Shown here: in pieces, positions 2,087-7,795 of the stretch
Numbering within the stretch: the stretch's first letter is position 1
Layout of the letters: every line of letters starts with the position of its first letter
Source of the DNA: a virus
Length of the DNA: 27,715 nucleotides
Virus record (IMG/VR): IMGVR_UViG_3300013004_000150
Location: 1-27,715 of that record
Strand: one strand, 5' to 3'
The notes under the pieces: generated by a model
Told to the model about the DNA's origin: nothing
Database searches by the model: none
What the model saw: only the letters and a program-made list of their open reading frames with translations
Made by a program: the position numbers and the translations under genes

Positions 2087-3004
2087 TTAATTCCAAGAGA
2101 CATTGCCTGTACCAGCAGTAATGGTTGTAACTTTAAAACCACCTGATGGAGAACCTGTAGTACCAGTTAAACCAGGCCCAACTGTGATTGTGAATGTGTC
2201 AGGATATTTGAGAATAACAATACCAGAGCCGCCATTTTTTGCATCGCTAGAGCCTGTACATCCGCCACCGCCACCGCCTGTATTTGTTGTTCCAGCAATT
2301 GCATAAGAACCCGGATTGGTATTGTTAGTGCCTGCGCCGCCACCGCCCAAACCACCGGCAGGGATAGTGCCTCCATTATTGCCAGAGCCACCGCCACCAG
2401 CTAAGTAATATAAGCCGCCGGATAATTCGCCTGAGGTTGATCCTGTAATTGGATTAACAGCTCCGATGCCTCCGGTACCCGGCCCTACTCCACCCAATGC
2501 ACCTGCCGCTCCAGCGCCGCCACCGCCGCCACCGTAGTATGGAGCACCTCCACCATCACCGCCGTTATTGCCTTGAGATGGGCTTGTACTTGGCGTATTA
2601 CCAGAACCCTTAAGTGACCCACCACCGCCACTTCCAGAACCGCCGCCGCCAGAACCACCGTTGCCACCATTAGGGCCACCAGTACCCGCACCAAATCCAC
2701 CACCTGTAGAAGTTATAGCACCAAAAACAGAATCAGAACCATTAGTACCACTGGTGGTGTAACCACCCGCAGTTCCACCAGCGCCAACTGTTACTGTGAA
2801 ATTAGTTGCAGTTGCAAATCCAACACTTGCAGTTCTAAAACCGCCGGCACCGCCACCGCCGCTGTTGTAACCAGAACCGCCACTTGTAGCGCCGCCACCA
2901 GCAACTACAACATATTGAACTGTCTGAGGCAAAACACCAGCGCCAGAAAAACGCTTCTTACGAAAAGCCTTTGCTGAACCAACATTAAATCTTTGAAATG
3001 GCAT
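2087..3004 (-). CDS. Glycine-rich tail-fibre/adhesin protein (305 aa)
   Basis: Paralogue of the 277-residue protein. The N-terminus MPFQRFNVGSAKAFRKKR carries the same AFRKKR segment, followed by VQYVVVAGGGA and a glycine-rich body to about residue 260. The end is the shared beta cap (ILKYPDTFTITVGPGL, then FKVTTITAGTGNVSWN). Repeated GGGGAG and GNGGSGGGG stretches fit a polyglycine II-type fold or flexible glycine brush, as in known phage adhesin tips. It starts 2 bases after the stop of the 179-residue gene and is followed by the MAHYAF gene. Likely an exposed host-recognition component. The glycine-rich domain class is certain; the exact virion position is not. Confidence 0.8.
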   Translation of the reverse strand: MPFQRFNVGSAKAFRKKRFSGAGVLPQTVQYVVVAGGGATSGGSGYNSGGGGAGGFRTASVGFATATNFTVTVGAGGTAGGYTTSGTNGSDSVFGAITSTGGGFGAGTGGPNGGNGGSGGGGSGSGGGGSLKGSGNTPSTSPSQGNNGGDGGGAPYYGGGGGGAGAAGALGGVGPGTGGIGAVNPITGSTSGELSGGLYYLAGGGGSGNNGGTIPAGGLGGGGAGTNNTNPGSYAIAGTTNTGGGGGGCTGSSDAKNGGSGIVILKYPDTFTITVGPGLTGTTGSPSGGFKVTTITAGTGNVSWN

Positions 3005-4530: not shown

Positions 4531-5802
4531 TTATTCATTCCATTGAACATTGCCTGTACCGGCGGTAAAGGTTGTGACTTTACTATCCCCATCCGTTTCA
4601 GTTGTACCCGTTAAGCCAGCACCAATTGTGATAGTATATCCAGTCGGGTATCTGAGAATGACTACACCAGAACCGCCACTGCCGCCATAGCCGGAATAGT
4701 TGACATTGCCACCACCACCACCACCGCCAGTGTTGACAGTTCCAGCAACACCTGTCGGAGAAGCCGAATCGTTGGCGCCAGCGCCACCACCACCGTTACC
4801 ACCAGCGCCGGCAGTTTGACCGCCGCTAGAATTGTTTAGAACAGAGCCACCGCCACCGCCAGCACGGAACACGGATGGGCCTGTAATGGTTGACGCAACG
4901 CCCGCACCACCAGCACCGCCTGTTCCAGTAGTAGTTCCTGTTGAAGCACCACCAACTGCGCCTGCGCCGCCACCGCCTCCACCTAAACCTGTAGCTTCAG
5001 GGCCATAACTGTCTCGACCTAGTCCGCCGTTATAGCCTTGATTTGCTGTTCCTGTTCCTACTGTCGGCGTGTAGCCGTTTGCACCACCACCACTTCCGCC
5101 ATTTCTTGTAGCGGGGCCCCCAGCGCCAGCACCGCCACCACCGCCAATGGATGTAATAGCATTAAATACTGAATCTGAACCAAGATTTCCATGGTTTGTA
5201 TTGTTCGTTCCAGCCCCACCTGCACCTATGGTTACTGTGTAATTGGTTGCAAGCGTAAATGTAAATACAGACTCGGCACTCCCGCCGCCGCCAGAAGTTC
5301 CATAAGATGTTCTATAACCTCCAGCACCACCACCGCCGGCTGCTCGGTTACTTTGAGTACCACCGGCACCACCGCCCGCAATAACAAGGTAATTAACTTC
5401 AGGCGCCGGCGGCTGTGTTGGTGTGACGCCATTAGATGCAGCACTTGGTGCGCTTGCACCTGCTGCATTGGTTGCTGTAACAGTAAATGTAACATTTACA
5501 TTATTAGTTAAACCAGTAATAGTAATAGGCGAAACTGTATTAGAAGAAGAAATTCCAGTATTTGATGTGGCAATAAAACTAGTAATTGTGTTTGGAAATC
5601 CAGTGTCTGTTGGTGCAGTAAAAGTTACCGTAGCAATAGTATTTCCCTTTGTAGCAGTACCAATTATTGGAGCACCAGGTATCTTAGGCCAGATGTTATC
5701 TTTTCGAGCAGTATGCACTTCGGACAAAGACCAAATTCCTCTGGCATTTCCAGATGCTGTGCCATTTAGGATTCCAATAATCCCACCATTCTTGCGGCTC
5801 AT
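4531..5802 (-). CDS. Fibronectin type III plus glycine-rich tail-fibre adhesin (423 aa)
   Basis: Three parts are visible. Residues 1-40 are a leader with GIWSLSEVHTARKDNIWP, seen in aquatic phage fibre proteins. Residues 42-128 form a fibronectin type III domain (PGAPIIGTATKGN, TVTFTAPTD, then FTVTATNAAGASAPS). Residues 137-385 are glycine-rich, opened by VNYLVIAGGGAGG, and the end is the shared beta cap (ILRYPTGYTITIGAGL, KVTTFTAGTGNVQWN). It is the longest of the three complete glycine-rich paralogues and the only one with the fibronectin domain at its front. Its stop-start junction with the 117-residue gene is TAAATG, so coupling is likely. Probable surface-exposed host-binding fibre; the domain calls are strong, the receptor unknown. 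Confidence 0.85.
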   Translation of the reverse strand: MSRKNGGIIGILNGTASGNARGIWSLSEVHTARKDNIWPKIPGAPIIGTATKGNTIATVTFTAPTDTGFPNTITSFIATSNTGISSSNTVSPITITGLTNNVNVTFTVTATNAAGASAPSAASNGVTPTQPPAPEVNYLVIAGGGAGGTQSNRAAGGGGAGGYRTSYGTSGGGGSAESVFTFTLATNYTVTIGAGGAGTNNTNHGNLGSDSVFNAITSIGGGGGAGAGGPATRNGGSGGGANGYTPTVGTGTANQGYNGGLGRDSYGPEATGLGGGGGGAGAVGGASTGTTTGTGGAGGAGVASTITGPSVFRAGGGGGSVLNNSSGGQTAGAGGNGGGGAGANDSASPTGVAGTVNTGGGGGGGNVNYSGYGGSGGSGVVILRYPTGYTITIGAGLTGTTETDGDSKVTTFTAGTGNVQWNE

Positions 5803-6912: not shown

Positions 6913-6936
6913 TATTTATGTATTTATGTATTTATC
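6913..6936 (-). promoter_or_regulatory. Three tandem late-promoter-like octamers
   Basis: On the minus strand, three contiguous octamers read GATAAATA, CATAAATA and CATAAATA, each one base from the T4 late consensus. They lie about 22 to 45 bases before the ATG of the 105-residue gene; the outermost overlaps the stop codon of the 287-residue gene. An exact 8-base period is unlikely for chance AT-rich sequence and suggests a duplicated promoter element for the fibre block. Confidence 0.6.
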
Positions 6937-7795
6937 CTAGCGCAATCGCAAACGCTAATCCATCACCTAAAGAAGCAACAGCTGTGTTAGCAGCTAAAAA
7001 AGCCGCATTAGCAGTATTTAAGGCCACAGTTATACTATTATTTTGAGTTAAATTCGTAGCAGAAGCTGCTGTGACACTTGCGTTAACTGAAGTAACGGTA
7101 GGTTGGATAATTAAATTACCCACCATAACTGAGTGATTTTGACATTGATATACATAAGTGTTGCCAGCTAAATTAAAAGGAACTTTCCAAATGAGTGTTC
7201 CAGTTTCTTTCGCTTGAGCACCACCTTCAGTAGTAACAATACCAGTTGTTGTAACGTGAGTAAGACCATTACTGTATAATGTTCCGCCATTTGATTGTCT
7301 TATCAAAAATGGATGGCCTGCAGCATTAATGTTAAATGAAACAGTTTGGCCAGGATGTAAATATATGTCAGGATTGTTACCAGAGTATTGGTCAAATACG
7401 TAAGCCCCTGCACCAGAATTTGTAACGGCGAAAGTAGTAACACCAGTTCTTACATTAGCATTTGAAGAAAATGCAAATCCATTAACAAAAACATTTGAGT
7501 TAACACTTAAAAGACCAGTAGTACTGATAATAGTATTAAGATTTGAAGTGCCTAATACTGTTAAATTGTTTGCAAAAGAAGCTGAGCCATTAGAGTTGAT
7601 ATCATCAAAACTAATTGCATCAAGAATAATATTTCCTGATACTGTTAAGTCACCACCAATTTTAATATTAGTGTTTGCTAAAAAAGTAAAAGAATTTCCG
7701 CCGTCTGTAAGATCGTTTGCAAAAGAAATAAGAGATTGAGAAGAAGTCAACCATTGTTGAAACGTATTCGCCGTTGTGATTTGATTAATAGCCAT
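6932..7795 (-). CDS. Tail-fibre protein with a cupredoxin-like domain (287 aa)
   Basis: Residues 40-110 are beta-strand repeats of the NTNIKIGGDLTVSGNI type, usual in phage fibre bases. Residues 130-232 look like a cupredoxin: a first strand at AYVFDQYSG, then LHPGQTVSFNI, GHPFLI with His161, and near the end YVYQCQNHSVMVGNL with Cys218, His221 and Met224. This is the full His, Cys, His, Met set of a type-1 copper site in the normal spacing. Residues 233-287 are Ala/Thr/Asn-rich and may form the next shaft. Related cupredoxin-like segments are known to me from aquatic phage structural proteins. The start overlaps the preceding stop as TAATG. Copper binding, electron transfer or simple structural use cannot be separated from sequence. 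Confidence 0.75.
   Translation of the reverse strand: MAINQITTANTFQQWLTSSQSLISFANDLTDGGNSFTFLANTNIKIGGDLTVSGNIILDAISFDDINSNGSASFANNLTVLGTSNLNTIISTTGLLSVNSNVFVNGFAFSSNANVRTGVTTFAVTNSGAGAYVFDQYSGNNPDIYLHPGQTVSFNINAAGHPFLIRQSNGGTLYSNGLTHVTTTGIVTTEGGAQAKETGTLIWKVPFNLAGNTYVYQCQNHSVMVGNLIIQPTVTSVNASVTAASATNLTQNNSITVALNTANAAFLAANTAVASLGDGLAFAIALG

Follow-up and report, generated by a model that had tools for sequence, protein, structure and literature searches.

Metal sites in the tail fibres of phages and pyocins are established. In the part of PMC6116203 available to us, sites of the HxH kind are described as formed jointly by three chains along the axis of the fibre; they hold iron in the fibres of pyocins and in T4 gp37, and zinc in T4 gp12. 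Its authors propose that the metals have a role in folding or stiffness. It has also been proposed, in the accessible part of PMC11705849, that the iron-holding fibres of marine phages act as Trojan horses, and the available part of PMC3037559 reports that cyanophages carry petE.

The cupredoxin fold and its type-1 copper site are already known, and automatic cupredoxin-like annotation of single cyanophage proteins may exist. In the literature searched, which covers subscription papers thinly, we found neither a cupredoxin nor a type-1 copper domain reported from a phage tail, nor any account of such a domain on the virion in the form of an optional fibre cassette whose copper set is conserved. 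PMC8115048, in which the terms "copper-binding" and "tail fiber" occur, concerns viral nirK in the part available, which is a different matter. Here, we analyze a 287-residue protein encoded on the minus strand (6932-7795) of a 27,715-base virus record (the window, that is, the whole stretch of DNA that was analyzed), in which the original prediction had recognized a tail-fibre protein with a complete type-1 copper ligand set.

The fibre gene and its optional domain

The tail-fibre context is well supported. The profile phrog_677, "baseplate wedge tail fiber protein connector", matches residues 54-233 of the protein (E 2.4e-21, profile positions 248-411 of 412), and T4-like baseplate genes surround the gene. 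One neighbor is a gp6-like protein nearest to that of Methylophilales phage Melnitz (42.4%) and Pelagibacter phage HTVC008M (40.8%), and another, of 2141 residues, is nearest to proteins of Synechococcus phage BUCT-ZZ01 and Pelagibacter phages. Three glycine-rich fibre-like proteins are also encoded on the minus strand (161-994, 2087-3004, and 4531-5802), the last of which matches the Pfam family Gly_rich_2; we take these proteins to resemble the poly-glycine adhesins of T-even phages. The gene can be divided as follows:

6932..7795, minus strand: short fibre or baseplate-associated fibre gene with a cupredoxin module, assigned from the phrog_677 match and the T4-like baseplate neighbors
7703..7795, minus strand: N-terminal conserved segment, residues 1-31, MAINQITTANTFQQWL..., with a predicted helix at 12-31, also present in cupredoxin-less orthologues
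7442..7702, minus strand: shaft-like segment, residues 32-118, with GGDLTVSGNI-type repeats and variable length, assigned from orthologue length variation and a low-confidence model
7103..7441, minus strand: predicted cupredoxin domain, residues 119-231, assigned from AlphaFold2, Foldseek, VIA-align 2, and the family profile
6935..7084, minus strand: C-terminal segment, residues 238-287, predicted helix, with the ending ...LAFAIALG common to cassette-less orthologues

The full-length model, with a pLDDT of 66.4, contains the helix at 12-31 and a long helix at 238-286, both at low confidence, which we attribute to the modeling of one chain of what is probably a trimeric fibre. The domain had been described as embedded between fibre-shaft repeats; this is borne out on its N-terminal side, but on the C-terminal side residues ~238-286 are predicted to be helical in the low-confidence monomer model.

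A query consisting of the first 90 residues retrieved 24 distinct proteins, 14 of which (the fibre protein included) contain the cupredoxin and 10 of which do not. All 24 share the N-terminal segment and a terminal AIALG or SIALG peptide, while the length of the shaft varies. Since these ends are common to proteins with and without the domain, the cupredoxin is inserted between the shaft and the C-terminal segment and is dispensable; in other words, it is an optional cassette of the fibre protein.

Predicted fold and candidate ligands

AlphaFold2, given residues 112-238 together with 35 relatives chosen from the distinct domains then known, produced a model of the domain with a pLDDT of 92.7 and a pTM of 0.85, with all five models above 91. 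Foldseek searches of the PDB with this model returned 46 chains at E <= 0.001, led by rusticyanin and AcoP, and among the 50 matches listed, all are cupredoxin-fold copper proteins except coagulation factor V, which is itself partly made of cupredoxin-type domains. The best VIA-align 2 score was a Z of 10.7 for copper nitrite reductase (rmsd 2.5, 107 residues), and both rusticyanin (rmsd 2.1, 93 residues) and AcoP (rmsd 2.5, 104 residues) reached 9.2. Among the matches listed by the two programs, there are only copper proteins or relatives of the fold (factor V and SufI). On the basis of these models, we are confident that residues ~119-231 belong to the cupredoxin fold superfamily, and the original prediction, which had named structure prediction and overlay on known copper proteins as its check, is confirmed in this respect.

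Profile comparisons point to the same superfamily. The top match of a profile built from 36 domains (A1) is amicyanin (E 0.0069), and a family profile (A2) matches plastocyanin 2plt (E 2.1e-6). The Pfam model PF00127 (Copper-bind) matches 26 of the 36 A1 members at E <= 1, with a best value of 1.2e-4, and 8 of 50 A2 members at E <= 0.01. The fibre protein itself has no Pfam cupredoxin match, PF00127 included, which counts against reading it as a copper protein, and searching the sequences of Pfam, NCBIfam, and the PDB with the protein or its domain alone gave no cupredoxin match, in our view because its sequence is too divergent. PF00127, which misses the fibre protein too, has no match in the whole 27,715-base record. 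The amicyanin model TIGR02657 does not match the fibre domain, and ten relatives reach at best 22.6 bits against a cut-off of 110.2.

Five codons of the domain deserve to be located individually, the first four being read from the sequence and supported by family conservation:

7313..7315, minus strand: His161 (GHPF, in GHPFLI), proposed first copper ligand
7142..7144, minus strand: Cys218 (YQCQNHSVMVG), proposed thiolate ligand
7133..7135, minus strand: His221 (YQCQNHSVMVG), proposed second His ligand
7124..7126, minus strand: Met224 (YQCQNHSVMVG), proposed axial ligand
7256..7258, minus strand: His180 (GLTHV), a fifth conserved residue, conserved in its own subfamily only

The whole protein contains one Cys, four His, and two Met, one of which is the start Met; thus, its sole Cys and its sole internal Met are both proposed ligands. 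Cys is scarce in the proteins of the tail region in general, with 23 among 8829 residues in 24 hand-picked minus-strand open reading frames. His161 precedes Cys218 by 57 positions, and the loop, C-x2-H-x2-M, is spaced as in amicyanin, with which it aligns, so the blue-copper spacing that had been claimed for the ligands stands. In type-1 sites, the first His lies before a strand, the Cys at the end of a strand, and the second His and the Met in the loop that follows. In the secondary structure of the model, His161 (model residue 50) directly precedes strand 52-55, Cys218 (107) closes strand 102-107, and His221 and Met224 (110 and 113) lie in the loop ahead of the last strand (114-119). His180 is kept in 70 of 71 distinct sequences of the fibre protein's own subfamily and is absent from the wider family; therefore, we place it outside the type-1 set, and it possibly marks a second site or an interface.

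Judging from the alignments, the register of the first His is the weakest point of a type-1 reading. When HMMER aligns A1 with amicyanin or A2 with plastocyanin, Pro is paired with Pro, so that the phage His comes two positions ahead of the ligand His. A further point against the type-1 reading is that a Pro follows the first His in the phage domain, where plastocyanin and amicyanin have Asn. In the phmmer alignment of a relative, the domain of cyanophage P-RSM6 (L226), with amicyanin, the first His, Cys, His, and Met are all paired in one run. A PDB search aimed at this register, with the N-terminal half as query, matched no cupredoxin, and one with the relative L220 gave no match. We favor the in-register alignment because of the coupled loss of the ligands described below.

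Conservation and coupled loss of the proposed ligands

The quartet is invariant in all 36 aligned domains of A1. Of 178 distinct phage-context domains (317 rows, from 315 loci and the fibre protein), 174 retain all four ligands, a count from which rows with more than 35% gaps were excluded (more than 30-35% for ligand counts overall) and for which some loci were chosen by patterns that include ligand residues and others by patterns without them. All ligand counts refer to distinct sequences, as some contigs are present under two locus identifiers. Conservation is near-complete down to ~28-40% identity with the fibre domain, and with the four codons confirmed, the complete type-1 ligand set of the original prediction is upheld.

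The four exceptions among the 178 comprise one shortened match (L111) and three triple losses (L219 copy 1, L314/L315, and L303), each of which retains the Met but lacks both His ligands and the Cys. These triple-loss members sit in open reading frames. When the domains are clustered at 70% identity, 40 of the 44 clusters are intact, 3 have lost His, Cys, and His together, 1 is a truncated match, and none is partial; if the three losses per residue were independent among 43 clusters, the probability of such a coincidence would be 6.6e-9. Furthermore, the triple losses lie on separate branches among intact relatives, and one of them adjoins an intact copy in the same protein. Joint retention or loss of His, Cys, and His is what one would expect of residues that share a metal, and it is thus the best evidence for a single metal site. 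A chance motif was rejected in view of the predicted fold, the conservation, and this coupled loss.

The cellular relatives are somewhat less uniform: among 45 distinct domains, 41 are intact, 1 has Gln for Met, 1 has Asn for the first His, and 2 are truncated. In one of them (L327), Asn replaces the first His and the other three ligands are kept, which speaks against a strict all-or-none rule. In another, from an Acidobacteria MAG (L323:3001-3270), Gln replaces the axial Met, which fits a type-1 reading of the family; Gln as axial ligand instead of Met is a known type-1 swap, found in stellacyanin.

Conserved ligand residues can also be structural, and one rival reading is that the domain is a pure scaffold, with a cupredoxin fold in which His, Cys, His, and Met are kept for folding or packing and a virion that is free of metal. 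Virions assemble in the cytoplasm, where free copper is scarce, orthologues without the whole domain exist, and 3 of the 178 distinct members lack the ligands in open frames, so the fold may not need them. Nevertheless, it is difficult to account for a near-invariant quartet and the joint loss of three non-adjacent residues unless a ligand is shared, and a kept Cys is out of the ordinary for tail proteins, in which this residue is as rare as the count above indicates (23/8829). We therefore consider a metal-free scaffold fairly unlikely.

Distribution, origin, and possible roles

When 50,697 phage records were searched by tblastn with the fibre protein, 128 proved to contain relatives; 126 of these are named Synechococcus, Prochlorococcus, or cyanophage and 2 marine virus. 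A second subtype was found in 315 phage records, Pelagibacter phage HTVC028P among them, a set that may contain true plastocyanins. Thus, the expectation that similar segments exist in other aquatic phages proved correct, since cyanophages and a Pelagibacter phage carry the domain. The full quartet is present in all 13 isolate or single-cell records listed. Most of the annotated sites examined are fibre proteins and gp10-like connectors. Fibre and connector proteins of cyanophages also head the named matches among the BFVD models that have the fold, and giant-virus proteins are present as well. A scan of genome contigs with A1 yielded 25 pattern matches and 0 relatives.

In Synechococcus phage S-SCSM2R (PQ898602.1), a gene annotated as "PetE" (L232:2800-3306) lies among fibre-like genes (FhaB and a peptidase S8 domain). 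Given these neighbors and its grouping in the tree with phage fibre and connector cupredoxins, its product may be of the fibre type and not a plastocyanin metabolic gene product. A fibre cupredoxin can pass for such a metabolic gene in annotation.

In bacterial and archaeal genomes, a search that chose some loci by ligand-containing patterns found 40 loci with more distant relatives, many of them at the C-terminal end of proteins whose signal ends in Cys; by a loose pattern, lipoprotein-like signals occur in 19 of 41 open reading frames of the cellular set. Two MAG contigs, binned as Pelagibacter (L338) and Gammaproteobacteria (L345), are probably phage, because their domain-bearing proteins resemble phage tail proteins. 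In a midpoint-rooted tree based on a short alignment, the fibre protein's subfamily forms a phage-only clade (21 representatives, support 0.97), and other phage domains intermingle with cellular ones. This mixing makes it probable that cells and phages have exchanged the domain more than once. Most likely, the domain descends from an exported cupredoxin of bacteria, like those now found at the end of lipoprotein-like proteins, which phages would have adopted as a fibre building block, as Ig-like domains have been taken up elsewhere. The bacterial relatives with lipoprotein-like signals support the exapted periplasmic fold that was among the options first considered.

Receptor binding would be another possible role for an exchangeable, optional module that lies close to a fibre protein's end and recurs in fibre and connector proteins of several kinds; in this case the domain, with or without a metal, would touch a host surface structure and set adsorption. 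Its presence both in gp10-like connectors and in a number of fibres from phages that infect different hosts fits a generic module better, however, and no copper-related partner gene was recognized within the 27,715-base record, so we regard this role as unlikely. The original prediction had also mentioned a copper-related host surface protein as a binding partner, and no finding of our analysis points there.

A redox or auxiliary-metabolic role in the infected cell, like that of cyanophage petE plastocyanin, would agree with the match of fold and ligand set to electron carriers and with the petE genes reported in the available part of PMC3037559. Nevertheless, the domain belongs to a fibre-type protein, with an N-terminal module common to fibre orthologues, in a baseplate and fibre gene block, and this role seems very improbable to us. 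The identification of the gene as a plastocyanin petE auxiliary gene was rejected because of this fusion and this gene block.

The reading that we favor, and hold to be rather probable, is that of an optional cupredoxin cassette in a short fibre of a T4-like aquatic phage, acting as a copper-binding, metal-stabilized accessory module and not as an electron carrier. The four ligands would form one type-1-like site, His followed by Cys-x2-His-x2-Met, holding copper. Loading would take place after lysis, because free copper is scarce in the cytoplasm. The bound metal would stiffen and stabilize a beta-sandwich "decoration" module near the fibre end, in parallel with the role proposed for the iron and zinc sites of other phage fibres, and the module would function as a spacer or a weakly binding adhesin. 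We do not expect it to transfer electrons, because no redox partner is evident on the fibre. We infer copper binding, the identity of the metal, and the stabilizing role from the conserved residues and the predicted fold; on this view, copper may be present in some virions.

A bolder proposal would be that aquatic phages of several host groups have working type-1 copper sites on their virions, which take up copper from the water after lysis, and that this copper sets the shape of the module and mimics a copper complex for the uptake receptors of the host outer membrane. We consider this quite doubtful; if true, it would extend the Ferrojan Horse idea to copper, and virions would make up a reservoir of tightly bound copper in natural waters. 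The domain is frequent enough in cyanophages to bear on virion survival and on the location of copper in surface waters.

In comparison with known systems, the phage domain shares the cupredoxin fold with amicyanin, plastocyanin, rusticyanin, and AcoP, with the His...Cys-x2-His-x2-Met arrangement of amicyanin and a plastocyanin profile match at E 2.1e-6, but it differs from them in being fused into a fibre protein and in the Pro that follows its first His. Its relatives also score far below the NCBIfam cut-off of the amicyanin equivalog (22.6 vs 110.2 bits), and we know of no redox partner for the phage fibre domain. Among the gp10-like connectors of cyanophages (phrog_677), those of P-TIM40, P-RSM6, and S-WAM1 carry the same domain at their C-terminal end, whereas the fibre protein is shorter, has a different N-terminal module, and continues after the domain with a predicted C-terminal helix. 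Lipoprotein-like proteins of Flavobacteriia, Marivirga, Myxococcota, and others likewise end in a GHPF...YxCxxHxxM domain, with the full quartet in 41 of 45 distinct cases, but they are exported by cells, and the fibre protein's subfamily is a phage-only clade. Finally, the HxH iron and zinc sites of T4 gp37, T4 gp12, and pyocin are, like the site predicted here, protein-bound metals in a tail fibre. In contrast to them, the cupredoxin site would sit within one domain and include a thiolate, so copper in a phage fibre would represent a new metal beyond the known iron and zinc as well as a new way of building a fibre metal site, within a single domain and with a Cys.
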